Source: Betaproteobacteria bacterium (lineage in GTDB: Bacteria > Pseudomonadota > Gammaproteobacteria > Burkholderiales > SG8-39). From it: a stretch of 58,862 bases of DNA. Below, piece by piece: positions 4,226 to 56,255 of the stretch; the stretch's first letter is position 1; every line of letters starts with the position of its first letter. The notes under the pieces are model-generated. The model was given only the letters and a program-made list of their open reading frames with translations, had not been told where the DNA came from and did no database searches. Location of the stretch: assembly GCA_947478805.1 (NCBI GenBank), contig CANJXQ010000011.1, forward strand, positions 1 to 58,862, written 5' to 3'. Made by a program: the position numbers and the translations under genes.

Positions 4226-4295
4226 TGCTGCTCCTTAAAAAAGATCGCCCTTCCCGTTGCGGCGACGCCGCAGCCTTTCCCGGCGGCCCGCCTGC

Positions 4296-5294: not shown

Positions 5295-5505
5295 TCACGC
5301 CCCCGTTGACTTGAATGCGCATGGTACTCAGCACGGCCAAGCATGGCAACGCAATCCTCAATGGCCATGTCGGTATTGCAGCAATTCCCCGGACACGCTG
5401 CGCAACGCACGCACTGCAGTCACGCGATCGCAGCATGGCGGAACGCTATAATCGCGCCCCACGATCCGTCACCAACGCATCACTGTCTTCGAATGGAAAC
5501 CGTCC

Positions 5506-8447: not shown

Positions 8448-8580
8448 CAGAAAAGCTCTGAAGAAACCTGAGTTGCGTCGCGAGGCAGCGCAGCCGGACG
8501 AGCGCGGGAAAGCCGACTCAAGGAGTTACACGTTTTCATCGTCGGAAAACCCTGGCGGTGTTTGCTGAATCAGAGCCTTC

Positions 8581-9645: not shown

Positions 9646-9738
9646 TGTGTTCCCCCTCATTCTCGGTTGATGAACTGCATTGGATGATGGTGCTGGCGTT
9701 ACATGCCTGAAAGCAGGCAAGGATATTACTTGTATTCG

Positions 9739-10632
9739 TTACTGCTGTTCGTAGGCCCTGAGAACCTCCGCCCTCAGGTGCTCCCAGATGCTGTGCTGTA
9801 TGGCCACGAACTTCTCATCGAAGCGGAGTTCCGTCAATTCGCGCGGCCGCATCAGGTCGACCCGGTAATCCCCGAGGATCCGCCCCGGGCTTGCGGTCAT
9901 CACCAGCACGCGATCCGCCAGCCCGATGGCCTCCTGCAAGTCGTGCGTAATGAACACGACCGTGGGCTTGTTGACGTCCCACAGGTGTAGCAGGTCGTTT
10001 TCCATCAGCGTCCGGGTCTCCACGTCCAGGGCACTGAAAGGCTCGTCCATCAGCAGAACGCGCGGCTCATAACTCAGTGTCGCAGCGATCGATACGCGCT
10101 TTCTCATGCCGCCGGACAACTGGTGCGGGTAACTGGCCTCGAACCGCTTCAATCCCACGCGTGCGAGCCATGAACGCGCCAGTTCCTCGGCCTCATGCTT
10201 GGACTTTCCGCGAAACCGCAGTGGCAAAGCCACGTTCTGCAGCGCGGTACGCCACGGCAGCAGTGCGTCGCGCTGGAAGATGAAGCCGACATCCTTTTGG
10301 ATGCCATTGACCTGTTTCCCCAGTACTTCCACTGTCCCCTGGTCTGGCTGGGACAGGCCTGAGATGAGCGTCAGCAGCGTGGACTTTCCACAGCCCGACG
10401 GCCCGACAACCGTCAGGAATTCGCCTTGCCTTGCTTCGAACGACACATTTTCAATGGCCGTGAATTTCCCGCGCGCTCCCGAAAACATGCGCTTGACATT
10501 GGTGAGCCGGATCGCAATGGCGGCCGATGTTGCTGGTTTGCCGGAGTCCTGCCCCTGACCAGTCGTTGCGCGCTCGCCTTGTTCGGTTACAGAGGCTTGC
10601 GCAGGGCCTCCCAACGACAGGTTGACGCTCAT
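9739..10632 (-). CDS. ABC transporter ATP-binding protein (SsuB/TauB type)
   Basis: A 297-residue ATPase with all nucleotide-binding motifs: Walker A GPSGCGKST, Q-loop FIFQRDALLPW, signature LSGGMRKRVS, Walker B VLLMDEPFSALD and switch FITHDL. About 40 extra residues precede the ATPase domain. The ATG at 10632 comes one base after the stop of the upstream cupin gene (TGATATGAGC), pointing to translational coupling; an in-frame ATG at 10686 would overlap that gene by 53 bp. It powers the importer made with the two permeases and the binding protein encoded immediately downstream. Confidence 0.9.
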   Translation of the reverse strand: MSVNLSLGGPAQASVTEQGERATTGQGQDSGKPATSAAIAIRLTNVKRMFSGARGKFTAIENVSFEARQGEFLTVVGPSGCGKSTLLTLISGLSQPDQGTVEVLGKQVNGIQKDVGFIFQRDALLPWRTALQNVALPLRFRGKSKHEAEELARSWLARVGLKRFEASYPHQLSGGMRKRVSIAATLSYEPRVLLMDEPFSALDVETRTLMENDLLHLWDVNKPTVVFITHDLQEAIGLADRVLVMTASPGRILGDYRVDLMRPRELTELRFDEKFVAIQHSIWEHLRAEVLRAYEQQ

Positions 10633-10633
10633 A

Positions 10634-11503
10634 TCAGCCGGTACCTGTCCCGGCCTGGTCGGCAAAACTGGGCATGACGAATCCAAGGATCACCGTGTCC
10701 ACCCACGCCGCCACTTCGACACTTTCATTCACCAGCAGATCGACGCCGGATTTCGGCGAGTAGGCTTCGCCGGCAATGGTGCCCCTGCCGCTCAGGAAGA
10801 AAAACAGGTTCACATTCGGAACCGCGGCGTGCCGGTACGACGCTCCGGCCGGGATCATCACCTGGTAGGCCGAGGTGCCGCGTTCGTTGAAAACACCGAA
10901 GTTCCGGCTCATGATGCCGGCAGCGGCCCCCTTGACTGGCATCCAGGGAAAAGCCTCCGGCTTGATCACCACCGGTTCGCGATACCGTGCAGGCGGGTAC
11001 TCGAGCTTCCTGCCGTTGACATGCTCCCAGACGGCTTCATAGGCATCCTGGTTGAATTTCTTGCCCTCGGCATTCGTGTAGGTGTAGATGCCCTTGACGA
11101 ATTCGCCTTTTTGCTGGAGCTCCGATGCCCCTCGCGCCAGGGCCTCCCAACTCATGTAACCGTAACCGTTCGGGCCGGCAAACTGCACGATCAACATGTG
11201 CGAGCCGCTGAGAATTGTCTGCGGGCCGTAATAGGCGCCTTCGGGAAAATAGCCCAGGTGCCCTGGCGGAACGTCCAGTTTCGGCGAATAGTTGAGGGGC
11301 TCGTCGAATGCCCAGCGAAACTGCTCGAAATTATGGCGGTGGCGCGGAGAGAAGGAATCCCCTGGACCGAACGACTCGTAGGCCATCTCGTAATTGTCCT
11401 TCGCAATCGGATTGCCCTGCAGCAAGGGCTTGTACCGAATGGTCACCGAGCGCGTGCCGGGATACTGGGTCCAGCCGAGCTCTTCCTCAACGGCGATTCT
11501 CAT
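10634..11503 (-). CDS. Bicupin-fold protein
   Basis: A 289-residue protein with two cupin-like halves. The first contains a metal-site-like HRHNFEQFRWAF segment and a GYFPEGAYYGPQ turn. The second half begins near IPAGASYRHAAVPNVNLFFF but keeps only one His. Cupins include dioxygenases, isomerases and ligand-sensing proteins, and the reaction is unknown. The ATG at 11503 has GGAGGTG upstream. A perfect 14-bp palindrome (11522-11535) lies just before this start, suggesting that the cupin-ABC part of the operon has its own regulated promoter. The gene is coupled to the ATPase gene, so it may act on or sense the imported compound. Confidence 0.72.
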   Translation of the reverse strand: MRIAVEEELGWTQYPGTRSVTIRYKPLLQGNPIAKDNYEMAYESFGPGDSFSPRHRHNFEQFRWAFDEPLNYSPKLDVPPGHLGYFPEGAYYGPQTILSGSHMLIVQFAGPNGYGYMSWEALARGASELQQKGEFVKGIYTYTNAEGKKFNQDAYEAVWEHVNGRKLEYPPARYREPVVIKPEAFPWMPVKGAAAGIMSRNFGVFNERGTSAYQVMIPAGASYRHAAVPNVNLFFFLSGRGTIAGEAYSPKSGVDLLVNESVEVAAWVDTVILGFVMPSFADQAGTGTG

Positions 11504-11632: not shown

Positions 11633-12457
11633 TCAGGCCGCTCCCCCTGCCCGCACATAGGTGGTCTCGCCCTTCCCTAGATGGTCGCGCTCGCTGATCG
11701 GTGCATGCTTGGGTCCCTCGCGAGACATCATCACGAAATGCGGCTCGGTCGGTCGAAAATTCGTGAATGCCAGCCCGCCCTCGGCGACCCCGAATCCGTA
11801 CACGGTGTTCGCATCGACTGCCAGGGCCGTCCCGGGCTTGAGCACCTGACGGCCCACGATCATGCCCCCCTCGACCACGAAGATGATTTCGTCTTCCGGA
11901 TGGAAATGAGGGTGCCCCTGCGGACACGGCGTGTTGAATTTGGACTGGTGGAACCAGGCATCGCAGGTCGGGCAAGCCGCATCCGCCCATACCGTGGTCG
12001 CCGTGTCGTAGTACACGTTGTCCTTGACCTGTCTCAGGCCCCTGGCATCCACACGATGCACATGGCCCCCTGGCTTTCTGGAATATTCCGGCCGCACGTC
12101 ACGGCTATGGTAGTGCAGCAGCGTGGCTCCGCCCTCACCGGCACCGATGCTCGTCGAGCCCGCGTGCTCCAGGTACACCACGCCGGCCGGCCCCAGTTGC
12201 TCGCCCCCCGCCAATACGCTTCCCTTCCACACATAAACGAGGTGGCCGACGGGAGGTTGATCCCATCGGATCGATGCGCCAGCCGCCAGCTCGTGCATCC
12301 ACAGCCACAGCGGTCGGTCCTGCCCCACGATGACCGCACGGCTTTTCACGGCCCCGCTGTGACTCACACTGGCCAAAACGGGAAACGCTCCCGCCGGTAC
12401 CGCGTCGGTATTCACGACGACGGTTTGCCCCTTCCCTTCCGCCCTGACTCGTCCCAT
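11633..12457 (-). CDS. Cupin-domain protein with Cys-rich insert
   Basis: A 274-residue protein. The N-terminal half has a cupin-like barrel (GASIRWDQPPVGHLVYVWKG). The C-terminal half has a full cupin metal motif, GHPHFHPEDEIIFVVEGG, offering His-x-His and Glu. Between them is ACPTCDAWFHQSKFNTPC, a Cys cluster that could bind zinc. The paired cupin halves resemble oxygenase- or isomerase-type bicupins, but no substrate can be assigned. It is transcribed with the P450 genes upstream (75-bp gap) and followed by the second cupin gene after 129 bp containing a possible operator. The ATG at 12457 has AGGAG upstream at a slightly long distance. Confidence 0.72.
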   Translation of the reverse strand: MGRVRAEGKGQTVVVNTDAVPAGAFPVLASVSHSGAVKSRAVIVGQDRPLWLWMHELAAGASIRWDQPPVGHLVYVWKGSVLAGGEQLGPAGVVYLEHAGSTSIGAGEGGATLLHYHSRDVRPEYSRKPGGHVHRVDARGLRQVKDNVYYDTATTVWADAACPTCDAWFHQSKFNTPCPQGHPHFHPEDEIIFVVEGGMIVGRQVLKPGTALAVDANTVYGFGVAEGGLAFTNFRPTEPHFVMMSREGPKHAPISERDHLGKGETTYVRAGGAA

Positions 12458-12532: not shown

Positions 12533-13807
12533 TTACGCCGTTCTCCCCCGATCCCGACCCAGGTGTACCGGCAGGCGCTTCAGTCCGTGGAACATCGGAT
12601 GCGCATTCCATTCGATGCGACTCGGATCCTCCGCCAGCCGCATGTCCGGAAAACGCCGGCACACCGTGTCATACACCGCCTGCGCCTCGAGCCGCGCCAG
12701 TGACGAACCGATGCAGACATGCACCCCTTTGCCAAACGACAGGTGATCGATATCGGTGCGCCCGATGTCCATTCGGTCCGGATCCTTGAATACTGCCGGG
12801 TCGCGGTTGGCCGAGGCGTAAAGGATCATGGTGTTCGTTCCCGCAGCAATCTTGTGGCCGGCGATTTCGACGTCCACATTGGGCATGCGCACCATCATCT
12901 GTACCGGCGCATTGAAGCGCAGTGTTTCCTCCACCGCGGACTTGGCCAGCGAGGGATCCGCGCACAGGCGCTCCCACTGGTCGCGATGCACCAGCATGTC
13001 GTGAATACCACTGCCGATCAGGTCGGTCGTCGTCAGGTGCCCTGCGTAAAGAATGACCACCAGCGTCCCGGTCAGTTCATCTTCGCTGATACGGCCATTG
13101 TCCTGCGCTTCGATCAAGGCGCTGACCAGCGATACATTGCCGGGGTTCCTGCGTGAGTGCTCCACCATCTTCGCCGCATAGCCGCGCACGTTCGCGATGC
13201 CGGCATGGGCCTTGCGAATCTTGTCCGAAGGCACGCCCCCCGGGACGTACTGCTTTACGGCCGCCAGGTCGTCACCCCACGACTTGAGCATGTCCGCATC
13301 GTCCCGCGGCGCCCCAAGCAACTCCATCAATGCCAGCAAAGGCAGACGGTAGGACAGTTTCACCAGGTCGCTCTCCTCGGTCTTGGCAAGGTCATCGAGG
13401 AAATCGTTGGCGAGCTTCTTGGCGTAGTCGCCCAGATGCGCGATGCGGCTCGGGGTGAAGCCGCGGATTGCCGCACTTCTGACGCGCTGGTGGATCGCGC
13501 CGTTCATCCCGCTGAGCTGCAATGCCTCGAAGGCGACGATTTCCCGCACCCGCTGCCGGTCGTCTTCCGACAGCGAATCCATCTTGAATCGTTCCTGCCC
13601 GCGGCGCGTCAGCAGGCGCTGATCATCCAAAAGGGATGCCTTCGCCTCGGCATGGCGCGTGACGAAAGGCACTGTCGACTTGTGCCAGTACACGGGGCCG
13701 AGATCACGCATTCGCTGATAGACCGGATACGGGTTGCGTACCACGTCCTGATCACCTGCCAGCAGAGCTGCCACTGCCTGCTCCAGGTCGGCGTCGGGAA
13801 CTGTCAT
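12533..13807 (-). CDS. Cytochrome P450 (tandem copy 1)
   Basis: A 424-residue soluble bacterial P450. The heme-thiolate signature is FGKGVHVCIG with C365, the ExxR pair is E294/R297, and the I-helix motif is AGHLTT at 255-260. The common acidic residue of AGxE/DTT is Leu here, in both tandem copies. The ATG at 13807 follows AAGGAG; an ATG 39 bp upstream lacks such a site. It would hydroxylate a hydrophobic substrate using electrons from a ferredoxin not encoded nearby. It is collinear without gaps, by eye, with the P450 encoded 43 bp upstream, indicating a recent tandem duplication. Confidence 0.93.
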   Translation of the reverse strand: MTVPDADLEQAVAALLAGDQDVVRNPYPVYQRMRDLGPVYWHKSTVPFVTRHAEAKASLLDDQRLLTRRGQERFKMDSLSEDDRQRVREIVAFEALQLSGMNGAIHQRVRSAAIRGFTPSRIAHLGDYAKKLANDFLDDLAKTEESDLVKLSYRLPLLALMELLGAPRDDADMLKSWGDDLAAVKQYVPGGVPSDKIRKAHAGIANVRGYAAKMVEHSRRNPGNVSLVSALIEAQDNGRISEDELTGTLVVILYAGHLTTTDLIGSGIHDMLVHRDQWERLCADPSLAKSAVEETLRFNAPVQMMVRMPNVDVEIAGHKIAAGTNTMILYASANRDPAVFKDPDRMDIGRTDIDHLSFGKGVHVCIGSSLARLEAQAVYDTVCRRFPDMRLAEDPSRIEWNAHPMFHGLKRLPVHLGRDRGRTA

Positions 13808-13850
13808 CTGGGCTCCTTTTTCATCGTTATCCTGAGGGGCCTTCATGGTC

Positions 13851-15125
13851 CTATGCCGTGCGGCCGCAATCGCGCCCCAACCGAACCGGCAGCCGTTTCA
13901 CCCCGTGGAATTTCGGATGGGGATTCCATTCAAGGTCGGCTGGGTCGGCGGCAAGCCGCATTTCCGGGAAGCGCCTGCTGACCGTATCAAACACCGCCTG
14001 CGCCTCCAGGCGCGCCAGCGAGGAGCCGATGCATACGTGCACGCCCTTGCCGAATGCCAGATGGTCGATGTTCACCCTGGAGATGTCGAGCCGGTCAGGA
14101 TCCTGGAAAACGGCCGGATCGCGATTCGCGGACCCAAAAAGAAGCATGACACTGGTTCCGGCAGCAATCCGGTGACCGCCAATGTCCATGTCCGCCGCCG
14201 CGATCCTGGGCATCATCTGCACCGGCGCGTTGAACCGCAGCGCCTCTTCCACTGCTCCCTTGGCCAGGTTCGGATCTGCGCAAAGGCGCGACCACTGGTC
14301 GCGATGCAGCAAGAGGTCGTGTATTCCCGTGCCGAGAAGGTCGGTCGTCGTGAGATGCCCCGCATAGAGAATAATTACCAGCGTGCCCGTCAGCTCCTCG
14401 TCGTTGATGCGCCCGCCATCCCTTGCCTCGACCAGCACGCTGAGAAGACTGAGGTTGTTCGGCTGCTTGCGATGGCGCTCCACCAGGCTCGCGGCATAGG
14501 CCCGCAGGTTGGAGATCGCGTCGTGACCGGCCTTGATTTTTTCCGAAGGCACTCCGCCTGCGGCAAAACCCTTCACGCCCGCAAGGTCGTCGCCCCAGGA
14601 CTTGAGCATGTCCGCATCCTCGTGGGGGGCGCCCAACAATTCCATGAGCACCAGCAGAGGCAATCGATAGGACATCTGCACCAGATCGCAGTCCGCCTCC
14701 CCGGCCAACTGGTCGAGAAAATCGTTAGCAACCTTCTTGGCGAATTCCCCCAGATGGGCAATGCGGCTTGGCGTGAACGCGCGCACGGCCGCACTCCTCA
14801 CCCGCTGGTGCACCGGCCCATTCATTCCGCTCAGGTGGAGCGCTTCGAAGGCCACGATTTCGCGCGCTCGCTTGCGATCTTCTTCGGACAAGGAATCCAG
14901 CTTGAAGCGGTCTTCAGCGCGCCGCGTCAACAGCCTCTGGTCGTCCTGCAGACAGGCCTTGGCCAAGGCGTGCGTCGTCACGAACGGCATATCGGGCTTG
15001 TGCCAGTACACCGCACCCTTTTCGCGCATGCGCCGATACACCGGGTAGGGATTGCGCACGACTTGCGGATCGCCGGCGAGCAGCAATGACGCCGCCCGAT
15101 CCAGCTCCATGGTTTCAATACTCAT
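13851..15125 (-). CDS. Cytochrome P450 (tandem copy 2)
   Basis: A 424-residue P450 paralogous to its downstream neighbour: C365 in FGKGVHVCIG, an ExxR pair (EEALR) at 294-297 and AGHLTT in the I helix. By eye the two proteins align end to end without gaps and agree at roughly three quarters of positions. The start may be the ATG at 15125 or a TTG at 15140 that overlaps the DUF35 stop codon; I prefer the ATG because it gives the same length as the paralogue. Its position directly after the thiolase-fold and DUF35 genes ties the oxidation step to CoA-linked chemistry. No ferredoxin or ferredoxin reductase gene lies nearby. Confidence 0.93.
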   Translation of the reverse strand: MSIETMELDRAASLLLAGDPQVVRNPYPVYRRMREKGAVYWHKPDMPFVTTHALAKACLQDDQRLLTRRAEDRFKLDSLSEEDRKRAREIVAFEALHLSGMNGPVHQRVRSAAVRAFTPSRIAHLGEFAKKVANDFLDQLAGEADCDLVQMSYRLPLLVLMELLGAPHEDADMLKSWGDDLAGVKGFAAGGVPSEKIKAGHDAISNLRAYAASLVERHRKQPNNLSLLSVLVEARDGGRINDEELTGTLVIILYAGHLTTTDLLGTGIHDLLLHRDQWSRLCADPNLAKGAVEEALRFNAPVQMMPRIAAADMDIGGHRIAAGTSVMLLFGSANRDPAVFQDPDRLDISRVNIDHLAFGKGVHVCIGSSLARLEAQAVFDTVSRRFPEMRLAADPADLEWNPHPKFHGVKRLPVRLGRDCGRTA

Positions 15126-15136
15126 CGCGTCGACGT

Positions 15137-15616
15137 TCAAATCAATTCAAAATGAAAATCGGTAATCCGCCCCTGCACCTCGGCACTGAAGACGGTCCGC
15201 ACGCGCGGGCGGGAAAGAAGGCTCTTCCCGGCCGCATGGATGTCCGACAAGTCCACGCCCTTGATGAAATTGGCAATCGAGGTGTCAGCGCCATCCAGGG
15301 TCACGTAGCCGATCACGAAGGGCGGCGGCGGCATCCCGGGAAAAGCCGCGGCGACGATGGTGAAGACTTCGAGCGTCCCCTCCTCACCCACGGGCTCCCA
15401 GCTGACCGTCTCGACGTAACACGCCTCGCAGAACGTCCTGGCCGGCACCAACAGACGACGGCATTTTCCGCAACGGGTGCCCATGATCCGGCGCGAGTTC
15501 TTGAGCTCGGCAAAAAATCGGCTGGCCGTTTCGCCGGCAAAATAGCGATAGTCGAAATTCCAGTTCCCCGGAATCGTGATCAACTCCACGTCATTCGGCA
15601 TATGAACGTCTTTCAT
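15137..15616 (-). CDS. DUF35 (Zn-ribbon plus OB-fold) protein, zinc site intact
   Basis: A 159-residue DUF35 protein: an N-terminal helix with FDYRYFAG, a rubredoxin-like zinc ribbon with CGKC and CEAC, and a C-terminal OB fold (GTLEVFTIV, VIGYVTLDGAD). Such proteins are obligate partners of thiolase-fold enzymes, for example BbsA with BbsB, ChsH2 with Ltp2, PhlB with PhlC, and the archaeal thiolase/HMG-CoA synthase complex. They build part of the acyl-CoA site. The ATG at 15616 overlaps the stop of the upstream thiolase gene as ATGA, which fits a stoichiometric complex. The paralogue at 20479 has lost most of the cysteines. Confidence 0.88.
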   Translation of the reverse strand: MKDVHMPNDVELITIPGNWNFDYRYFAGETASRFFAELKNSRRIMGTRCGKCRRLLVPARTFCEACYVETVSWEPVGEEGTLEVFTIVAAAFPGMPPPPFVIGYVTLDGADTSIANFIKGVDLSDIHAAGKSLLSRPRVRTVFSAEVQGRITDFHFELI

Positions 15617-16776
15617 GATGGTTCTGCCCCAAGCACCACTGCGGTCGAAAACTGCGTCGCCCCGCCCTGCCCCGTGGCAACGGCAAGACGAATGCCGTCC
15701 ACCTGGCGACGGCCTGCCCGGCCACGGATCTGCAGCGCGCATTCCGCGATACGGATCATGGCAGTGGCACTGACCGGGTTCGCAGCTTGCGCTCCAGCCG
15801 AAGGGTTCACAGCAATTCGAGCCGTGCCATCGACGATGCTGTCGAGAAACCGCGGTCCGTCCGCAGGTGCGCAAATGCCTAGCGGGGCATAGCCCATCGA
15901 CTCGGAACTGGCACAGGCGGCGTGGATTTCCACCATGTCGACTTCCTTCGCCGGATCGACGACTCCCGCATCACGATAGGCCTGCGCCGCACAACGGCGC
16001 AGCGTCACGACATCGACGAGCGCACCTTCCGCGCGCGAGATGCGGCTGCCCATCTCGTAGGTATCGCTCAACCCGCTCGCCCCGCGAATCCAAGCGGCGG
16101 GTCGCGACCCGACCCGGTTTTCTGCCGCGATAACCATCGCACAGGCCCCTTCGGACACAGGCCCGATTTCCAGCTTGTGGATGGGCCAGGAAATCACGCC
16201 GGAAGAGAGCACATCCCCGGCACTGAAACGCCGAGGCGATTCGAGCGTGTCATTCAGCAACGACAGTTCGGAATTGCGTGCTGCCAGGTGTGCCCATTGC
16301 TCCAGCGTGTAGCCGTATTTCTGGATCATCATGGTGGCGCGAAGCGCGACCATGCTCAATGTGCTCAGGCTGATGTCGCGCTCGTAGATCGGATCGAAGA
16401 TGGAATTGAACACCTTGGGCGCAGTCACCGCATGCCCCATGCGTTCAACCGCGACGACCAGCACGGCATCGCAGCGACCCGCCGCAATCCACGTCAACCC
16501 CGCGAGAAAGGCAGAGGAGCCCGTCGCACCGCCCGTGTTCACCCGGAAGTACGGGATTCCCGGCCGCGCAATCGACCCCATGTCGACATGGTCGATCCCC
16601 GCCAGCGCGTCCGGGGCCACACCACCCACAACCAGCCCGATGGCATCCAGGTCCATCTGAGCATCCGTCAGTGCGGCCGTCACCGCTTCACGAACCAGTT
16701 CCGCCGTATTGCGGCCCGAATGCCTGCGGCGGTATTGGGTCTGCCCCACGCCGACAACGGCCGCCCGGCGACTCAT
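15613..16776 (-). CDS. Thiolase-superfamily protein lacking the nucleophilic Cys
   Basis: A 387-residue thiolase-fold protein, matching the usual length. It opens AAVVGVGQTQYRRR. The site of the acyl-accepting Cys reads VNTGGATG, putting Gly83 where thiolases have Cys. The GHPLGASG region reads AANPVSAT (Asn333 for His), and the C-terminal Cys loop reads ATGQGG. Loss of the whole Cys-His-Cys set is also seen in Ltp2-like aldolases that work with DUF35, so a retro-aldol or other C-C bond reaction is more likely than ordinary thiolysis (inference). The ATG at 16776 overlaps the preceding stop as ATGA, and the 3' end overlaps the DUF35 gene the same way. Confidence 0.85.
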   Translation of the reverse strand: MSRRAAVVGVGQTQYRRRHSGRNTAELVREAVTAALTDAQMDLDAIGLVVGGVAPDALAGIDHVDMGSIARPGIPYFRVNTGGATGSSAFLAGLTWIAAGRCDAVLVVAVERMGHAVTAPKVFNSIFDPIYERDISLSTLSMVALRATMMIQKYGYTLEQWAHLAARNSELSLLNDTLESPRRFSAGDVLSSGVISWPIHKLEIGPVSEGACAMVIAAENRVGSRPAAWIRGASGLSDTYEMGSRISRAEGALVDVVTLRRCAAQAYRDAGVVDPAKEVDMVEIHAACASSESMGYAPLGICAPADGPRFLDSIVDGTARIAVNPSAGAQAANPVSATAMIRIAECALQIRGRAGRRQVDGIRLAVATGQGGATQFSTAVVLGAEPS

Positions 16777-17852
16777 GCCCGCTCCAGCACGACGGCCGTG
16801 TGTGTCTGTGCGCCTAATGGGGAGGACCCAATGGCCATTGCGCGCCTCGGCGCTGTGTCCAGTTGCGTTGCGCCGGCCGTGCCGCTCAGCTGATGGAAGC
16901 ATTCCGCGAGTCGCATCAGCCCCATCGCCGGATAACACCACGCGGCAGCCGAACCGCCGGCGCGATTGACGTTCTCCGCAAGAGCATAGTGTTCAAACGC
17001 GTGCCCAGGCGCCGCCAGTCCGAGGGACTCCAGTGCAAGCGCCTCTTCCACCAGGGTCATCCCGTCGATTTCGAACAGGTCGATGCTGTCGATCCCCCGC
17101 GCGGAGCCACGCAATGCCATCTCCGCTGACTGCCGCAATGCGGGCATCCCCACCAGGTCGCGCTCGCCAGGTCGCGGAAGGTCGGTGGCATGCCCGACAC
17201 CGCCAACGCGCACCGGTGACGGAGCCGCGCCGATGATCATGGCAACGACGATGTCCGCCCATTTCGGCCCCTCCGCTTGTCGGAGGGGATAAGCCAGCAC
17301 TGAATCGCGACTCGGGACGCGCAATGCACGCGGGCTGCGCCCTGCCCGCATCGAGCGCGCGGCAGTTGCAGCTGCGCGCGAATCCCCGGGATCCCCGTAC
17401 CTGGCCAGCCAGGCGCTCAATCGAACAGCGGAAATATCGAGTTCCTGCAGACCCAGGGGCTTCTCGAACGCGGGATCGAATCCGACCCGCGACACCGAAT
17501 CGGGCGCCCCTTCGCTGGCACGCCCCCAGGCGGCAACCACGGACAACCGCGCTTCGCCCGCCTCGATTCTGGCAGCGGCAAAAGATGCCGCGACCAATCC
17601 ATCCTCGTCCACCCGCATCTCGTCCTTCAAGTAAGAGCCGGCTGCCGGCGCCGTCACCATGCTGGACAAGGACCGTCCGTCGATCAAGTCGTGAGCCGCA
17701 ATGACCACCGAGTCGACCGCATCCATGTGGGCGTCGGACTGGCGCAATGCATCGGTCACCGTGGCGAATATCATGTCCGTGAGGCTACGACGCGAATCGC
17801 CCCAGCCGACGGACGTCGCCGCGCCATGCAAGTAGACCGGTCGCGCATTCAC
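16773..17852 (-). CDS. Thiolase-like partner subunit
   Basis: A 359-residue divergent thiolase-fold protein, first gene of the 11-gene operon. The N-terminal half keeps the DSVVIAAHDLIDGRSLSSM topology, and the C-terminal half has WCYPAMGLMRLAECFHQL at the place of the GHPLG loop (Tyr-Pro for His-Pro) and ends in a THTAVVLE strand. The region aligning with the catalytic Cys loop has no Cys. I infer that it forms a hetero-oligomer with the next thiolase-fold protein and DUF35, because all three genes overlap by ATGA and the same trio recurs at 20479-23218. Substrate unknown. Confidence 0.8.
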   Translation of the reverse strand: MNARPVYLHGAATSVGWGDSRRSLTDMIFATVTDALRQSDAHMDAVDSVVIAAHDLIDGRSLSSMVTAPAAGSYLKDEMRVDEDGLVAASFAAARIEAGEARLSVVAAWGRASEGAPDSVSRVGFDPAFEKPLGLQELDISAVRLSAWLARYGDPGDSRAAATAARSMRAGRSPRALRVPSRDSVLAYPLRQAEGPKWADIVVAMIIGAAPSPVRVGGVGHATDLPRPGERDLVGMPALRQSAEMALRGSARGIDSIDLFEIDGMTLVEEALALESLGLAAPGHAFEHYALAENVNRAGGSAAAWCYPAMGLMRLAECFHQLSGTAGATQLDTAPRRAMAIGSSPLGAQTHTAVVLERA

Positions 17853-17918
17853 TCGGGTGTCCTCATCCAGATCGAGACGGTTCGGATTGACCTGGGCCCG
17901 CCGCTCGGCGCCCCCAGA

Positions 17919-17934
17919 TCAACAATAACGTTGA
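17919..17934. promoter_or_regulatory. Candidate TetR operator, site A
   Basis: TCAAC-AATAAC-GTTGA lies in the 197-bp divergent region between the 11-gene operon (start 17852) and the ligase-tetR pair (start 18050). It is 67-82 bp from the first start and 116-131 bp from the second. It shares half-sites and spacing exactly with site B at 24860. Confidence 0.6.
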
Positions 17935-18049
17935 TTGGATTCTACCTTTCACGGCAAAATGCTGCAGCCGCTGTGCTATTTTTACACCTTGTATTCAGTT
18001 GTGCGGATCACGTACAGACTCTCAATTCTCGCGGGAAAGGAATATCACC

Positions 18050-19585
18050 ATGCTGGATGTGCGCAATGCGATGCGAAGGGCCGCCGCGTTTCACCGGGAC
18101 CGCATTGCTGTCATCAGCAATGACCGCAAGCTCACCTACACGCAGGCCTGGGAGCGCGGCCTGCGCTTCGCCAACGCCATGCTGTCACTGGGCGTCGTGC
18201 CCGGGGATCGCGTCGCGGTGCTCGAGGACAACTGCCTCGAGGCCTCGGATTTCTTCCTGGGAGCAGCCGCCGCGAACGTGGTGCGCGTCCCCCTCTATCG
18301 CCGCAATTCACGGGAGGCGCACGGGCACATGCTTCGCAACACCGCCTGTTCGGCCATCGTCGTCTCCGAAGAGTATCTGCACGAGATCGAGGGACTCGAG
18401 AAGACCATTCCCACGTTGAAGCACGTGATCGTGCGTCGGGCAGACTATGAGAGCTGGCTGCTCAAGCACTCCAAGGAAGATCCCAATCCCCCAGTGGCGT
18501 TGGACGATTTCCACATCATCCGCCACAGCGGCGGGACGACCGGCCAGTCGAAAGGCATGGCCTTTTCGCACCGCACCTGGATGAACACGGAACGCGACTG
18601 GACCTATCTGCTGCCGCCCATCGACGCCGGAGACGGCTGCGTTCATGCCGGGCCGATTTCCCATGGTTCAGGCTACCTGTTCCTGCCCATCTGGCTGGCC
18701 GGTGGCTACAACGTTCTCGAGGCCAAATTCAACCCCACCCGCATGCTCGACCTGATCGACGAGCATTGCGGTTATTTCTTTGCCGTGCCGACGATGATCA
18801 GCGACATGCTGGCGGCGCCGCCGACCAAGCGCGCATTCTCGAAATTGAAGGCCATCGTGATCTCCGGTGCGCCGATTCGCGCGCAAACGGCGCTTGCCGC
18901 CAAGGACATGTTCGGCGAATGCCTGCACCAGCTCTACGGACAGACCGAATGCACGCCCGTCGTCTGGATGAGCCCGAAGGAATGGTTCACCGAGGTCAAG
19001 GGGTCCGACCCGCTGGCATCCTGCGGGCGGGTCATGCCTTATGCGGAAGTGGAAATCCGCGATGATGACAACAAGACGCGCCCCGTGGGGGAAGTGGGCG
19101 AAATTGCCGTGCGCAGCGACGGGCAGATGGAGAAAATCTGGAATGAGCCGGAGCAGACCGCCAGCCGAGTGCTCGACGGCTGGGTCCTGACGCGCGACAT
19201 CGGCAAGCTCGACCAAAACGGATTTCTGTACCTCGTCGACCGCAAGGACGACATGATCATCTCGGGAGGCCTGAACATCTGGCCCGCGGAACTGGAAATT
19301 GCGATCTCCAGCCTTCCCGGCGTGCGCGAAGTCGCCGTTGTGGGAGCGCCTGCGGAGCGCTGGGGCGAGACGCCGGTTGCCGTCGTCGTCGTCAATCCGG
19401 GGGCTACGCTGACCAAGGAAGAGGTCATCCAGGTCTGCGCGCAGCAGCTAGGCTCATACAAGAAACCCTCGCAAGTGGTGCTGCAGAGCGAACCGCTTCC
19501 CCGCACCCCGGTCGGCAAGATACAACGCAAGCTTGTTCGCGAGACGTTCTGGGTCGGGCACAAGAGTCGCATCGGCGGCACCTGA
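18050..19585 (+). CDS. Acyl-CoA synthetase (AMP-binding), module A
   Basis: A 511-residue ANL-superfamily ligase. The P-loop HSGGTTGQSKG has Ser in place of the usual Pro, followed by YGQTECTP, VLTRDIGKLDQNG, MIISGGLNIWPAELE and the terminal PRTPVGKIQRK with the adenylation Lys. It converts a free acid to its CoA ester. The ATG at 18050 follows GGAAAGGA; a GTG-like extension of 17 residues is disfavoured. It is divergent from the P450/thiolase operon and followed after 76 bp by the tetR gene. It is clearly paralogous to the ligase at 23255, both beginning MLDVR.AMRRAA.F.R.RIA. Confidence 0.92.
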   Translation: MLDVRNAMRRAAAFHRDRIAVISNDRKLTYTQAWERGLRFANAMLSLGVVPGDRVAVLEDNCLEASDFFLGAAAANVVRVPLYRRNSREAHGHMLRNTACSAIVVSEEYLHEIEGLEKTIPTLKHVIVRRADYESWLLKHSKEDPNPPVALDDFHIIRHSGGTTGQSKGMAFSHRTWMNTERDWTYLLPPIDAGDGCVHAGPISHGSGYLFLPIWLAGGYNVLEAKFNPTRMLDLIDEHCGYFFAVPTMISDMLAAPPTKRAFSKLKAIVISGAPIRAQTALAAKDMFGECLHQLYGQTECTPVVWMSPKEWFTEVKGSDPLASCGRVMPYAEVEIRDDDNKTRPVGEVGEIAVRSDGQMEKIWNEPEQTASRVLDGWVLTRDIGKLDQNGFLYLVDRKDDMIISGGLNIWPAELEIAISSLPGVREVAVVGAPAERWGETPVAVVVVNPGATLTKEEVIQVCAQQLGSYKKPSQVVLQSEPLPRTPVGKIQRKLVRETFWVGHKSRIGGT

Positions 19586-19661
19586 TCGTCAGGCGATTGC
19601 GTCTGCCCGTGCGTACCTGCCCACGTTTTCCCACCAAGTTAGCAGTCAACCGGATCACACC

Positions 19662-20417
19662 GTGAAGAGCATCGCCAAGCGGCGGGCACTGGCCCGCAAG
19701 AGCGGGGAAAAGGAATACGAGAGCCGGCGCGCAGAGCTGCTGAAGGCGGCCGCGAAAATATTCCTCGAAAAAGGCTTCCGGGCGACGAGCCTGGATGACA
19801 TTGCCAGAATCGTCGGAATCAACCGCGCCTCCCTTTACTACTATGTGTCTGGGAAGGAAGAGTTGTTCCGCGAAATCAATCGCGACGCAACGCTAGAGAA
19901 CGTCCTGATGGCCGAGCGCATTTTCAAGGGTGCAGGGAGCGCCCGCGAGAAACTGCGCGCATTCATGGTCGCGCTCATGGAGTCCTTCGAGCGCCACTAC
20001 CCTTACCTGTATGTGTATATCCAGGAGGACATGACCCGCGTCTCCAGTGACCGTACGCGCTGGGGAAAGGAAATGAACGCCCTGGCCAGACGGTTCGACG
20101 AAGCCGTCACCGGCATCGTGCTCAGCGGCTTTGCTCCCAAACCCTCACTCGCAGAACGACGCCGGGCCCGCGTGCTGGCCTTCGGGATGATCGGATTGTG
20201 CAACTGGAGCCACCGCTGGTTCCGCCCGGGACACGGCTTGTCCGCGCGAGCCGTCGGCAATCTGTTCGCCGACATGGTCCTGGATGGGGTTTACGCGCAG
20301 TCGCTCCCGGCAGCTTCTCCCGGGGGCCTCAGGCTTGCCATTCCCGCGGCCAAGAAATCGGTCAGGAAGTCCAATGGCGCTCGCGCCGCGAAGACTGGGG
20401 CCGCAATCCCTTCCTAG
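19662..20417 (+). CDS. TetR/AcrR-family transcriptional regulator
   Basis: A 251-residue regulator. The helix-turn-helix is SLDDIARIVGINRASLYYYV, in the KAAAKIFLEKGFRATS context typical of TetR proteins, and the C-terminal two thirds is the ligand-binding domain. A basic, Ala-rich tail after residue 225 is longer than usual. The chosen start is GTG at 19662; no ATG precedes the helix-turn-helix within the intergenic gap, and the ribosome-binding site is weak. It is cotranscribed with the module A ligase and convergent with module B. I infer that it represses both modules through TCAAC-N6-GTTGA sites, with an acyl-CoA as probable inducer, as for many regulators of degradative CoA pathways. Confidence 0.87.
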   Translation: MKSIAKRRALARKSGEKEYESRRAELLKAAAKIFLEKGFRATSLDDIARIVGINRASLYYYVSGKEELFREINRDATLENVLMAERIFKGAGSAREKLRAFMVALMESFERHYPYLYVYIQEDMTRVSSDRTRWGKEMNALARRFDEAVTGIVLSGFAPKPSLAERRRARVLAFGMIGLCNWSHRWFRPGHGLSARAVGNLFADMVLDGVYAQSLPAASPGGLRLAIPAAKKSVRKSNGARAAKTGAAIPS

Positions 20418-20478
20418 TCGTTCGCGGCGATCGCCCATTCAGCGTCACTGCCATTCCCAACGGCGGAACGGATCACCC

Positions 20479-20976
20479 CTAAATCGGCGCGATCAATTCG
20501 AAGTGAAAGTCGGTGATACGACCTTCGCGCACATCCGAGAATATGGCACGAACGCGCGGCTTGGCCATGAGCTTGTTGCCCGCGGCTTCAATGTCGGTGA
20601 GATCAACGCCACGAACATAGTTGAGCACTGCGGTATCCGCGCCGTCCAGCGTCACATACCCCATGACGAACGGCGGGTCCGGCAAGCCGGGAAACTTCGC
20701 CGCCACGATCGTGAAGATGTCCAGCGTCCCCTCCGGCCCGACTTCGACCCATTCCCCGGTGCGCTCATAGCTCGCATCGCAGAATGACCTGGCGGGTACG
20801 AGGACGCGCCCGGTCGATGGGACGCGCGTCCCCATGATCCTGCGGTTGATCTTGATCTCGTTGAAAAACCGACTGGCCACCGCCCCGGCAAAATAGCGGT
20901 ACTCGAAATTCCAGTGGCCGGCGATGGTGATGGGCTTGGAGATGGGATCGGGTGTTTGCACGACGAATTCCTTCAA
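20479..20976 (-). CDS. DUF35 OB-fold protein with degraded zinc ribbon
   Basis: A 165-residue paralogue of the DUF35 protein at 15137, sharing the FEYRYFAGAVASRFFNEIK opening, IMGTR, VLVPARSFC and VMGYVTLDGADTAV. The four zinc cysteines are nearly gone: the first pair reads VPST instead of CGKC, and the second reads CDAS instead of CEAC. The OB fold is intact. A zinc-free partner subunit is therefore likely. The start is probably the TTG at 20976, overlapping the upstream thiolase stop as TTGA, mirroring the ATGA overlap in module A. It is the last gene of the module B operon and convergent with tetR. Confidence 0.83.
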   Translation of the reverse strand: MKEFVVQTPDPISKPITIAGHWNFEYRYFAGAVASRFFNEIKINRRIMGTRVPSTGRVLVPARSFCDASYERTGEWVEVGPEGTLDIFTIVAAKFPGLPDPPFVMGYVTLDGADTAVLNYVRGVDLTDIEAAGNKLMAKPRVRAIFSDVREGRITDFHFELIAPI

Positions 20977-22136
20977 GGACGGTTGGAACCGAGAACCACG
21001 GCAGTCGAAAATTGCGTAGCGCCCCCCTGCCCTGTGGCCACCGCATGGCGAACCCCGTCAAGCTGGCGCTTGCCGGCAAGTCCACGCACCTGCAGTGCGC
21101 ACTCGACGATCCGAATCAGCGCGGTTGCGCTCACCGGATTGGCTGCCTGCGGCCCACCCGAAGGATTGACAAGCGCCCGCGTGCGCCCCTCAAGCAGCCT
21201 GTCGAGGAAGGCCGGGCCATTCTTCGCTTCGCAAAGACCCAAAGCGCTGTAAGCCATGGCCTCGGCGCTGGCAAAGGGAGCCTGTATCTCCACGCAATCG
21301 ATTACTTCTGACGGGTTGGCGATGCCGGCCTCGCGGTAGGCTTTTTCGGCCGACCTGCGCAATGTGAGCAATTCGACGAGCGAGCCCTCCGGCCGGCGAA
21401 TCCGATCGCCCATCGCGTAGGCATCGCTGAAGGCACCGGTGCCAAGCACCCAGGCGGCGCGACGCGCACCGACGAACTTTTCCGATGCGAGAACCGCCAC
21501 GCAAACGCCCTCGCTCATCGGGCATGCCTCCAGCGTGCGGATCGGCCACGACAGGATCGGTGACGCGAGCACCTGTGCCTTGTCGAACAGGCGCGGATTC
21601 TCCAGCGTGTCGTTGTTCTGGGAAGCCAGTGAATTCTTCGCTGCCAGCGACGCCCAGTGGTCGGTCGTGTAACCGTACTCCTGCATCAGCATGGTGGCAC
21701 GCATGGCGATCATGCTGATCGTGCTGATGCTGATGTCCTTCTCGTAGATCGGATCGAAAATGGAGTTGAAAACCGCCTGCGCCGTGGTCGCATAGCCCAT
21801 GCGCTCGACCGCGACCACCAGTGCAACGTCGCAGCGACCCGAAGCAATCCACGACATGGCGGCAAGAAATGCCGATGACCCGGTGGCCCCGCCCGTATTG
21901 ACGCGGAAGTACGGCACGCCGGGCCGCGATATCGACGCCATGTCGATGTGATTGATGCCGGCCAGGGCATCGGGCGCGACACCACCGACAATGACACCGA
22001 TGGCATCCGAATCGATCTGCGCATCGGTCAATGCCGCCTCGACGGCATCACGCACCAATTCGGCGGTATTGCGCTCGACATGGCGACGCCGGTAGGTGGT
22101 CTGTCCCACCCCGATGATGGCAACCGGATCTCTCAT
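20973..22136 (-). CDS. Thiolase-superfamily protein lacking the nucleophilic Cys, module B
   Basis: A 387-residue protein of the same length as the module A thiolase and closely similar throughout. The altered active site is shared: VNTGGATG for the Cys loop, AANPVSAT for the GHPLG loop and ATGQGG at the C-terminal Cys loop. Conservation of these changes in both copies argues for a distinct activity, not decay. The ATG at 22136 overlaps the stop of the upstream partner gene (ATGA). It is expected to assemble with the thiolase-like protein encoded upstream and the DUF35 protein encoded downstream. Confidence 0.85.
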   Translation of the reverse strand: MRDPVAIIGVGQTTYRRRHVERNTAELVRDAVEAALTDAQIDSDAIGVIVGGVAPDALAGINHIDMASISRPGVPYFRVNTGGATGSSAFLAAMSWIASGRCDVALVVAVERMGYATTAQAVFNSIFDPIYEKDISISTISMIAMRATMLMQEYGYTTDHWASLAAKNSLASQNNDTLENPRLFDKAQVLASPILSWPIRTLEACPMSEGVCVAVLASEKFVGARRAAWVLGTGAFSDAYAMGDRIRRPEGSLVELLTLRRSAEKAYREAGIANPSEVIDCVEIQAPFASAEAMAYSALGLCEAKNGPAFLDRLLEGRTRALVNPSGGPQAANPVSATALIRIVECALQVRGLAGKRQLDGVRHAVATGQGGATQFSTAVVLGSNRP

Positions 22137-23218
22137 GCCGTCACCAGCACCATGGCACCATGGGACTGCGCGCCAACCGGCGAAAACCCGGTGGCTAGCG
22201 CCGCTCGCAATCGCCCGGGGACTTGCACCCCCTGGGCCTGTCCGGTCAACTGCAGGTAACACTCGGCAAGCCTCACCAAACCCATGGCCGGGTAACACCA
22301 CCCCGATGCGCCGCCCCCGGACGGATTGATTCCAGTCCCATCGGCATAGGTTGCAAAGCCCTGGCCCGGTGCGGCCAGCCCCAGCACCTCCAGGGCATAC
22401 GCTTCATCGAACAGGGTTGCTCCTTCAAGCTCGAACAGGTCAATGTCCCTGGATTGCATCGATGCGCTGGACAACGCTCGCTCCGCGGCCTGCGCCAACG
22501 AAGGCATCCTGAGCAGGTCGCGATCGCCGACATTTGAAGAATCGGTGGAGTGGCCAGTCCCCGCGATGCGGACACGCGCCGGACGCGGCCCGAGGATGGC
22601 GGCAACGACGATATCGGCCATGCACGGCGCCTCCTCTTGCCGCAACGGATGCCACAGGTTCGGGGCATGGCCGCCGGACTTCAACGCTCGCCCATTGCTG
22701 CCCGCCCGCCGGGCACGTGCCTGACCGGCGCGACGACGTGAATCTTCAAGGCCGGGGTGTCGTTGAAGCCATGCCGACAGGCGCAGTGCAGACAGTGAAA
22801 ACTCATCCAGTCCCAGCGGCTGGATCATGAATGGATCGAAGGCGGTCTGCGACGTGCGCTGGAAATCGCCTTCGCTGGCGCGGCCGCATGCCGCCACAAC
22901 CGAGAATTCCGACTCTCCCGCCTCGATGCGCGCTGCTGCGAGCGACGCGGCCACCAGCCCATCGTCGGCGAGGCGGATTTCATCACGCATGTAGGCACCG
23001 GCCGCCGGTGCCGTCACCATGCTGGACAGCGAACGCCCATCGACGAGGTCATGCGCGGCCAGCACCACCGAATCCATCTCGGCCATTTTTGCGCCCGCGT
23101 TCGACAGCGCGCCGGTCACCGTCTCGAAGATGAGATCGGGGAGGCTGCGCTCGGCATCGGCCCATGTGACCGAAATCGCTACGCCTTGGATATACGCCGA
23201 ATTAGGAGAAATTCCCAT
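22133..23218 (-). CDS. Thiolase-like partner subunit, module B
   Basis: A 361-residue paralogue of the protein at 16773. Shared blocks are AHDLVDGRSLSSMVTAPAAG, VVAACGRASEG, DIDLFELEGATL and SGWCYPAMGLVRLAECYLQL. No Cys is present in the loop that carries the thiolase nucleophile. A stretch around residues 160-190 (ArgAla-rich, GQARARRAGSNGR) differs most between the two copies. It lies 36 bp downstream of the module B ligase gene and overlaps the thiolase gene by 4 bp, so it is the second gene of a four-gene operon. Confidence 0.8.
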   Translation of the reverse strand: MGISPNSAYIQGVAISVTWADAERSLPDLIFETVTGALSNAGAKMAEMDSVVLAAHDLVDGRSLSSMVTAPAAGAYMRDEIRLADDGLVAASLAAARIEAGESEFSVVAACGRASEGDFQRTSQTAFDPFMIQPLGLDEFSLSALRLSAWLQRHPGLEDSRRRAGQARARRAGSNGRALKSGGHAPNLWHPLRQEEAPCMADIVVAAILGPRPARVRIAGTGHSTDSSNVGDRDLLRMPSLAQAAERALSSASMQSRDIDLFELEGATLFDEAYALEVLGLAAPGQGFATYADGTGINPSGGGASGWCYPAMGLVRLAECYLQLTGQAQGVQVPGRLRAALATGFSPVGAQSHGAMVLVTA

Positions 23219-23254
23219 ATAAGATGGCTTGACTGCGTGCGTTTGCGTGGAAAC

Positions 23255-24799
23255 TCAAACGCCGCTGATCGAACTCTTGTGCCCCTTCCAGAACGGCTCG
23301 CGCAGCGCCTTGCGCAGGATCTTGCCGACCGGGGTGCGCGGCAGCGGCTCGCTCAGGAACTCCACGCGCGAGGGCTTCTTGTACGATCCGAGTCGTTCAG
23401 CGCATTCGCGGATGACCGCATCCGCGCTCATATCGACACCGGGCTCCAGGACGACAAACGCGGCTGGTGTCTCACCCCAGCGTGCATCCGGAATTCCCAC
23501 GACAGCGACTTCGCGCACGCCGCGCATGGCGGCGATCACGATTTCCAATTCCGCGGGCCAGATGTTGAAGCCGCCCGAAATGATCATGTCGTCCTTGCGA
23601 TCGACAAGGTACAGATAGCCGTTCTCGTCGAGGCGGCCGACATCTCGCGTCAAGACCCAGCCGTCGATCAGGCGCTGTGCAGTGAGCTCCGGATCGTCCC
23701 AGATGCTGCTCATCTGCCCGTCGCAACGCACCGCGATTTCGCCGACTTCACCCGTCGGCAGCGGCTTGTTGTCATCGCCACGTATCTCAATCTCGGCAAA
23801 CGGCATCACGCGACCGACCGACGAGATGGGATCGGAGCCGGGAACCTCGGCAAACCATTCGGCAGGCCCCATGAACGCCACGGGCACCGCCTCCGTCTGC
23901 CCATACATCTGGTAAAGCTTGTCGCCAAAGAGATCGCGCGCGGAAAGTGCCGTCTGTGCGCGAATGGGAGCCCCCGAGACCACCAGCGCCTTGAGCTTCG
24001 GGAAAGTGGGCCGCGTGGGCATCTGTTTCGCCGTCGAGACCAGATCGCTCACCACCGTGGGCACGGCAAACATGTACCCGCCCTTGGTCGCGAGGAGATC
24101 GAGCACCCGTTTTGCGTCGAACTTCGGTTCCAGCATGTTGCAGCCGCCCGCCAACCACACCGGCACGAACAACATGCCCGAACCGTGCGATATCGGCGCC
24201 GCATGGATGCAGAAGTCGGACGGGCTGAACGGCGGCAGGTGGTGCGTCCAGTCGCGCTCCATCGACATCCATTCGCGATGCGTGAACCCGATACCCTTTG
24301 ACACCCCGGTCGTCCCTCCGGAATGCCGGATGACGTAATAGTCGTTCATCGAGACTGTCGGATTGGGATCCGTTGCAGGCTGTTTGGCCAGCCACGACTC
24401 GTAGTCCGAACCACGGACGAGCACATGCTTGAGGTCGGGCAAGCTCTCCTTCAAACCCTCCACTTCGCGCATATGCTCCTCTGACACGACAAGCACGCGG
24501 CACTTGGTGTGCCGCATCATGTGGCCATGCGCCTCCTTGGAGTTGCGCTTGTAGAGGGGGACGCGGACAAGGTTTGCGGCCGCGGTCCCCAGGAAGAAAT
24601 CAGCTGCCTCAAGGCAGTTGTCCTCCAGCACCGCGATTCGATCCCCCGGCTTGGTGCCAAGGGCCAACAATGCGTTAGCCATACGAAGGCCGCGCTCCCA
24701 TGCCTGCGCATAGGTGAATTGGCGGTCACCACAAACGATTGCGATGCGCTCGCGATTGAAGCCGGCCGCCCTGCGCATTGCGCTGCGAACATCAAGCAT
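23255..24799 (-). CDS. Acyl-CoA synthetase (AMP-binding), module B
   Basis: A 514-residue acyl-CoA ligase, paralogue of the one at 18050. Its motifs are HSGGTTGVSKG (P-loop, again without the usual Pro), YGQTEAVP, VLTRDVGRLDENG, MIISGGFNIWPAELE and PRTPVGKILRKALRE with the adenylation Lys. The ATG at 24799 has a GGGGG ribosome-binding stretch; a 15-residue extension is less likely. It is the first gene of module B, with the candidate operator 61-76 bp upstream, and divergent from a Bug receptor gene 281 bp away. The small differences near the acyl pocket may mean a related but not identical acid is activated. Confidence 0.92.
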   Translation of the reverse strand: MLDVRSAMRRAAGFNRERIAIVCGDRQFTYAQAWERGLRMANALLALGTKPGDRIAVLEDNCLEAADFFLGTAAANLVRVPLYKRNSKEAHGHMMRHTKCRVLVVSEEHMREVEGLKESLPDLKHVLVRGSDYESWLAKQPATDPNPTVSMNDYYVIRHSGGTTGVSKGIGFTHREWMSMERDWTHHLPPFSPSDFCIHAAPISHGSGMLFVPVWLAGGCNMLEPKFDAKRVLDLLATKGGYMFAVPTVVSDLVSTAKQMPTRPTFPKLKALVVSGAPIRAQTALSARDLFGDKLYQMYGQTEAVPVAFMGPAEWFAEVPGSDPISSVGRVMPFAEIEIRGDDNKPLPTGEVGEIAVRCDGQMSSIWDDPELTAQRLIDGWVLTRDVGRLDENGYLYLVDRKDDMIISGGFNIWPAELEIVIAAMRGVREVAVVGIPDARWGETPAAFVVLEPGVDMSADAVIRECAERLGSYKKPSRVEFLSEPLPRTPVGKILRKALREPFWKGHKSSISGV

Positions 24800-56142: not shown

Positions 56143-56255
56143 TCGGTCAGGCGCTCCGGGAATTCAATCTTTTCAATCGACCATGACACCCGACCACAGT
56201 TGAATGCCGCGGCGGGTTGCATGATACATTGCGCCCGATTCATTCCTTCCTTTTC

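Follow-up and report, generated by a model that had tools for sequence, protein, structure and literature searches.

We analysed a 58,862-nucleotide stretch of DNA from a Betaproteobacteria bacterium (assembly GCA_947478805.1, contig CANJXQ010000011.1; our contig C11), hereafter the window, and found that four genes are present twice, side by side, at 12.5–24.8 kb. Each copy (A and B) comprises an acyl-CoA (coenzyme A) ligase, two thiolase-fold proteins, which we refer to as thl and thlL, and a DUF35 protein. The reading we favour, to which we give about an even chance, is that this module encodes a divergent complex of the Ltp3/Ltp4/DUF35 type that would act on a CoA thioester; its direction is probably catabolic. 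Annotated records name such proteins, for example, "thiolase domain-containing protein", though the branch appears not to consist of thiolases of the known type, and the sub-branch that includes the window also lacks the aldolase tyrosine. The source genome (4.42 Mb in 263 contigs, completeness 89.8, contamination 3.6) was probably assembled from a metagenome.

In copy A, the ligase (511 aa; 18050–19585, + strand) is divergent from the trio of thlL (359 aa; 16773–17852), thl (387 aa; 15613–16776) and the DUF35 gene (159 aa; 15137–15616), all on the − strand. In copy B, the ligase (514 aa; 23255–24799, −) heads the operon upstream of thlL (361 aa; 22133–23218), thl (387 aa; 20973–22136) and the DUF35 gene (165 aa; 20479–20976) on the same strand. 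The order thlL, thl, DUF35 is common to both copies; thlL and thl overlap by the four bases ATGA in each, and thl and DUF35 likewise overlap by four bases, ATGA in A and TTGA in B, where the start codon is TTG. Global alignment of A with B gave identities of 66.7% for the ligases (340 of 510 aligned residues), 65.4% for thl (253 of 387), 55.4% for thlL (199 of 359) and 62.9% for DUF35 (100 of 159; about 62–63%), and these values (55–67%) ruled out chance similarity. A first-pass annotation of the sequence had described this duplicated order, its overlaps and the paralogous ligases, and our alignments agree with it. Third codon positions varied most in every pair compared (0.25/0.16/0.57 by position for thl A/B), an excess that also holds for both copies against the Rhodoferax relative described below. 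We read this pattern as purifying selection, as expected for conserved coding genes.

Domains were assigned with Pfam. Both ligases contain AMP-binding and AMP-binding_C domains (PF00501, 226.1 bits for A, scanned from 18053, and 224.2 bits for B). Thiolase_N and Thiolase_C_1 were found in both thl proteins and only Thiolase_C_1 in thlL; PF22691 scored 69.9 and 70.9 bits in thl A and B, and 41.7 and 56.3 bits in thlL A and B. The relationship of thlL to thl was detected by hhalign (335 columns aligned, probability 99.4). In the DUF35 proteins, OB_ChsH2_C (PF01796) exceeded its cut-off of 27.1 bits in both copies (33.3 bits in A, 35.9 in B), and zf-ChsH2 (PF12172) reached 32.0 bits in A, above the cut-off, and 20.2 bits in B, below the cut-off of 23.2.

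According to the accessible part of one source (PMC12329534), SCP-2 thiolases have an HDCF motif and a nucleophilic cysteine, Ltp2 uses the tyrosine of YDHF as a base together with a second tyrosine (Tyr344), and Sal has a YDCY motif, with CtSal having a glycine where the nucleophilic cysteine stood. We aligned 51 thl sequences, from the two window copies and the 49 other places described below, and read the residues by eye; these rows count sequences, not lineages. The thiolase nucleophile position is glycine in all 51, window included, and the histidine of the GHP motif is replaced by asparagine in all 51, at a site that aligns with the second tyrosine of Ltp2. These residues indicate that the thl branch as a whole (51 of 51 rows) would be unable to act as thiolases of the known type. 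Since thl lacks the nucleophilic cysteine, C–C cleavage by thiolysis of the BbsAB type is unlikely; the kinship that the first-pass annotation drew to DUF35-linked thiolase-fold enzymes is well founded, and a catabolic setting is plausible.

Tyrosine occupies the Ltp2/Sal base position in 45 of the 51 thl sequences. The six others have histidine (window A), glutamine (window B, L012, L027 and L104; loci are numbered with L) or phenylalanine (L059), and the Ltp2/Sal-type catalytic tyrosine (YDHF/YDCY) is therefore absent from the window proteins, which read HAAC in A and QAPF in B. The spacing between this motif and an LG pair is equal in PDB entry 6ok1 and in window thl, so that the residue assignment needs no gap. 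Given the change of the motif tyrosine to histidine or glutamine, the residue bearing the chemistry would have moved, or the reaction would have changed. At the motif position thlL has aspartate in A, glutamate in B and aspartate in L012, and all three thlL proteins have the C-terminal motif WCYPAMG. The zinc-ribbon cysteines of DUF35 (C-x2-C-x10-C-x2-C) are intact in A, reduced to one of four in B and absent in L012; all four are kept in 33 of 51 DUF35 rows, which include four places fetched twice. L027 and L104 form a second branch without the motif tyrosine (QEPY), apparently lost independently; their DUF35 protein is about 310 residues long.

We profiled 55 loci, all picked by a thl match; six were second fetches, leaving 49 distinct places. 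With trio profiles built from ten trios that were themselves later counted, the window's included, thlL, thl and DUF35 were found together on one fetched stretch at 45 of the 49 places (50 of 55 before repeats were removed). The trio was incomplete at L052, L069, L071 and L076, each on a short stretch or contig. At L109 an enoyl-CoA hydratase (ECH)-like frame sits between thl and DUF35, so the trio genes are not always contiguous. The trio also occurs on a plasmid of Simplicispira suum (L033), and the order DUF35-ltp4-ltp3 was found in Nocardia farcinica (L029), Tsukamurella (L030), Streptomyces clavuligerus (L031), Nonomuraea (L032) and Mycolicibacter (L081). The trio is of a known and widespread kind and occurs beyond any undescribed pathway. 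At L033 (6535–10770) and L103 (3874–8430), it is followed by one more thiolase-like gene, accompanied by a DUF35 gene of its own, giving five such genes in a row.

Neighbouring genes were counted over 22 larger loci (8.8–31 kb), within the fetched stretch, and were labelled by BLAST against a small labelled set taken partly from the same loci, so that genes may have been missed and some hits are self-hits. A ligase was present at 15 of the 22, a cytochrome P450 at four (L012, L029, L030 and L081) and both at three (L029, L030 and L081). By these counts the combination of P450, ligase and trio is not generally kept and represents a minority arrangement. The search for the same gene order in other genomes, which the earlier annotation had suggested, thus found the trio often and its ligase and P450 neighbours less so.

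Among the matches listed, the closest named relative of window thl is in a Rhodoferax metagenome-assembled genome (L012; 69% identity), obtained by a contig scan that confirmed at least two loci, and the next is on plasmid pLP1 of Rhodococcus qingshengii (L011; thl 38.6%). A close homologue in a characterised pathway, which the first-pass annotation had named as evidence against its proposal of a new route, did not turn up among the named relatives found. Neighbourhoods were inspected for six of the 40 listed thl relatives and three of the ten listed ligase relatives; the latter three are varied catabolic clusters that name no substrate. The literature, covered as titles, abstract openings and open-licence papers, included several steroid papers, none of which we recognised in those parts as describing the window clade.

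We also searched sets of genomes for thl-type matches. These were present in 10 of 399 genomes from the family to which the Rhodoferax genome belongs, counting the latter (E ≤ 1e-80), in 53 of 396 genomes of the phylum of the Mycolicibacter genome, where some are the adjacent thlL (E ≤ 1e-85), and in one genome among 368 others from the window's class (E ≤ 1e-50). No match was found in 60 relatives (E ≤ 1e-60) or in 363 other genomes of the window's phylum (E ≤ 1e-80). A broader profile matched 15 of 398 other genomes of the order (E ≤ 1e-50, 175–199 bits), which may represent other thiolase families. The class, order, phylum and family searches scored at most four to five candidates per genome, so copies may be missed. 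In the genomes of the Mycolicibacter phylum (L051–L080), many of only 1.7–4 Mb, up to four places matched, some of them thlL, and in several a single thl/thlL pair adjoins two DUF35 genes.

When the history of the copies was examined, A, B and L012 were united in the thl tree in a clade of their own (100/100), distinct from that of Ltp3 (100/100). This tree grouped A with B weakly (81/47), a three-protein tree of 18 chosen loci placed B with L012 (84.7/84), and the approximately unbiased (AU) test rejected none of the three groupings (A+B 0.113, B+L012 0.861, A+L012 0.216). Pairwise identities among A, B and L012 were 65.4, 68.2 and 69.3% for thl, 55.4, 53.0 and 54.4% for thlL, and 62.3, 59.1 and 61.6% for DUF35. 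With the three about equally distant and the tree groupings undecided, A and B parted from each other about as long ago as from Rhodoferax, and a recent tandem duplication was therefore ruled out. Judged by these sequences, both copies are old and have diverged in the motif and in the zinc site. Beyond the trio, L012 has in common with the window a TetR regulator of the same Pfam C-terminal family (36–37% identical) and a P450 (30–32%). Beside its TetR gene, L012 2915–3181 matches just the C-terminal 90 residues of the NMT1-like binding protein of the window (52% identical), a piece that suggests a rearranged relative of the window cluster. A ligase gave no match at L012 in the neighbour BLAST, and AMP-binding was found there only below threshold (26.1 against 29.9 bits).

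The mechanism we propose begins with an ATP-binding cassette (ABC) importer next to the module, to which it is putatively linked and which would bring the acid in. Each copy's own ligase would then turn the organic acid into a CoA thioester, and in each copy a thl–thlL heteromer held by the DUF35 protein would act on the C–C bond beside the thioester without a thiolase cysteine and without thiolysis. In the parent family this would likely be a retro-aldol cleavage of a β-hydroxyacyl-CoA with tyrosine as the base; in the window clade, since the tyrosine is replaced, the catalytic residue may have moved or the reaction may be altered. No acyl-CoA dehydrogenase or hydratase was found among the scanned proteins of 5.5–28.8 kb, and for this reason the β oxygen in copy A may be supplied by two neighbouring P450s. 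These are P450_1 (437 aa; 12533–13846, −; PF00067, 76.4 bits) and P450_2 (429 aa; 13851–15140, −; 88 bits), the start of which overlaps the end of DUF35 A. Both were correctly recognised in the first-pass annotation, and we find in addition that they are tandem paralogues (303 of 429 residues identical, 70.6%). Each has the heme-binding motif and an I-helix, AGHLTT, without the usual acid, an aspartate or glutamate that is present in six of six comparison P450s. The PDB matches of P450_2 are spread over the superfamily at large, the best being CYP125MRCA, and indicate no substrate.

Several observations weigh against a divergent Ltp3/Ltp4/DUF35-type complex with this chemistry. The tyrosine that underpins the retro-aldol assignment is missing in six of the 51 thl sequences, both window copies included, and its loss argues against a simple retro-aldolase. 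The 51 rows do not count as independent, since 19 fall into two tight groups in the thl tree. DUF35 B lacks three of the four zinc ligands. SCP2-thiolases are the best PDB matches of thl by sequence. With thl A, Ltp2 and Sal give weak matches (34.7 and 34.5 bits), and in a PDB search with thl B neither was found at E 0.001. Structure models of thlL and thl were too poor to use (mean predicted local distance difference test, pLDDT, 32.9 and 36.6, from 3 and 4 alignment rows). No P450 was seen at 18 of the 22 larger loci and no ligase at seven, L012 among the latter. Ordinary hydroxylation is uncertain because both P450s lack the I-helix acid. The P450-hydroxylated organic acid suggested by the first-pass annotation is one candidate substrate. 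A steroid substrate is without support because the genome has no KshA_C match, a weak absence that concerns one marker in a genome of completeness 89.8, and steroid catabolism in this genome was rejected on that marker only.

A bolder form of the proposal, which we put forward tentatively as a lesser possibility, is that the window clade represents a new kind of CoA-dependent C–C lyase, a thiolase-fold heteromer that lacks both the cysteine of thiolases and the tyrosine of aldolases. Catalysis would then lie elsewhere, perhaps at the acidic residue of thlL (aspartate in A, glutamate in B, aspartate in Rhodoferax), and the substrates would be oxygenated by P450s without an I-helix acid. The two diverged neighbouring copies, one with histidine and a zinc ribbon and the other with glutamine and without the ribbon, offer a ready test of the catalytic residues and of the subunit.

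Other explanations were weighed against the same evidence. It is unlikely that the complex forms C–C bonds or transfers acyl groups like the Friedel–Crafts acylase PhlACB, which would make the module biosynthetic. The PDB matches of thl A include PhlC (45.8–52.4 bits) and P450s are common in biosynthesis, but PhlC uses a cysteine and thl has glycine at the nucleophile position. Moreover, neither a carrier protein nor a polyketide or fatty-acid synthase was found among 40 Pfam-scanned window proteins (some open frames lie outside the scan), and an importer adjoins the module.

The glutamine in its motif and the loss of most of its zinc ribbon would fit a copy B that serves as a regulatory or scaffolding pseudo-enzyme, B being the likelier of the two for such a role, with only A active. 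We consider this decidedly unlikely, as B has its own ligase, its codon-position differences from L012 are patterned as those of A, and the Rhodoferax genome, which has B-type features, contains one strong copy (689 bits; next match 189 bits).

It is improbable that the module is a direct Ltp3/Ltp4 orthologue that moved into this lineage and degrades branched sterol-like side chains. In the thl tree the window clade lies outside the Ltp3 clade, window thl is only 28–29% identical to that of L081, the catalytic tyrosine is gone, and KshA_C, a single marker, is missing from this incomplete genome. These points outweigh the shared trio, the ligase and P450 neighbours also seen at L081, L030 and L029, and the role of ltp3/ltp4, which the accessible part of PMC6273163 reports to be essential where sterol side chains are branched. 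A true thiolase of the BbsAB sort with a 3-ketoacyl-CoA as its substrate is highly improbable, the nucleophilic cysteine, the HDCF cysteine and the GHP histidine all being replaced in both copies in spite of weak matches to the BbsB and BbsA models and matches to the BbsB structure.

Further genes surround the module in the window. A TetR-family regulator (19620–20417, start approximate, +; PF17932 and PF00440) lies between the copies; the first-pass annotation was right that a regulator is present, but had assigned it to copy A. The ABC importer that it listed was recovered as an NMT1/SsuA-like system (6895–10686, −) with an ATPase (9739–10686), an NMT1-like binding protein (8581–9720) and two permeases (7659–8447 and 6895–7674). 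Of its two cupins, the protein at 11633–12457 (−) is possibly cupin-like, with Cupin_2 at 21.1 bits, below the cut-off of 27.2, and the 289-aa protein at 10634–11503 (−) has no family match in Pfam, to cupins or otherwise. A 404-residue open frame at 4222–5436 (−) is without a Pfam match at E 1e-5. A third P450 (54817–56142, −), about 25% identical to those of the module, adjoins a luciferase-like monooxygenase gene (56217–57239, +). The window genome has 17 PF01796 (DUF35) matches, two of them in the window, which points to many thiolase-fold/DUF35 systems. On its contig C54 (L005, L022), an Ltp2-like protein, matched best in the PDB by 6ok1 (E 2.6e-71), has YDHF and the second tyrosine, and adjoins a DUF35 gene and a P450.

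Compared with known systems, the module resembles the mycobacterial Ltp3/Ltp4-Rv3521-FadD19-CYP142 cluster in bringing together a ligase, a P450, a DUF35 protein and two thiolase-fold subunits. At L081 in Mycolicibacter, BLAST labels gave the order ligase, ECH, P450, ligase, F420-type oxidoreductase, DUF35, ltp4 and ltp3, with unlabelled frames and one epimerase-like frame interspersed. This matches the Rv3515c–Rv3523 table in the accessible part of PMC6429209 (fadD19 Rv3515c, echA19 Rv3516, cyp142 Rv3518c, F420-dependent oxidoreductase Rv3520c, Rv3521, ltp4 Rv3522, ltp3 Rv3523), so a named pathway with such a set exists, contrary to the first-pass annotation, which knew of none. Ltp3, like window thl, has glycine for the nucleophilic cysteine and asparagine for the GHP histidine. 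The mycobacterial cluster differs in its DUF35-ltp4-ltp3 order, its separate clade and its retained tyrosine, lost in the window, whereas in the window the module is present twice and accompanied by a tandem pair of P450s. The ltp3/ltp4 genes of the sterol cluster have been studied in Rhodococcus rhodochrous. The trio on plasmid pLP1 shares with the window the thlL-thl-DUF35 order, the four-base thlL/thl overlap and a nearby ligase and TetR gene, but has a YAPF motif and lies among genes for acyl-CoA dehydrogenases, MaoC hydratases and short-chain dehydrogenases/reductases (SDRs), with no P450 found.

Ltp2-ChsH2 and Sal-Shy, as described in the accessible part of PMC12329534, likewise pair a cysteine-less thiolase fold with a DUF35 partner. 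They differ in having a single type of thiolase-fold subunit, a DUF35 domain borne by a hydratase and the catalytic tyrosine, and match thl A weakly (34.5–34.7 bits). BbsAB and PhlACB also combine a thiolase-fold subunit with a DUF35 partner, but window thl lacks their catalytic cysteine. By analogy, the nearest functional parallel is the ipf ibuprofen cluster of Rhizorhabdus wittichii, which is likened here by description, not by sequence. We take IpfE to be a DUF35 protein, IpfF a ligase and IpfAB the oxygenase, a ring dioxygenase where the window has a P450, and we know of no thlL in this cluster. The thiolase encoded by ipfDE is credited with propionyl-CoA release in the accessible part of PMC9195938. 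A looser parallel is the dit resin-acid cluster, with the P450 DitQ and the sterol-carrier-like DitF (accessible part of PMC13063091).

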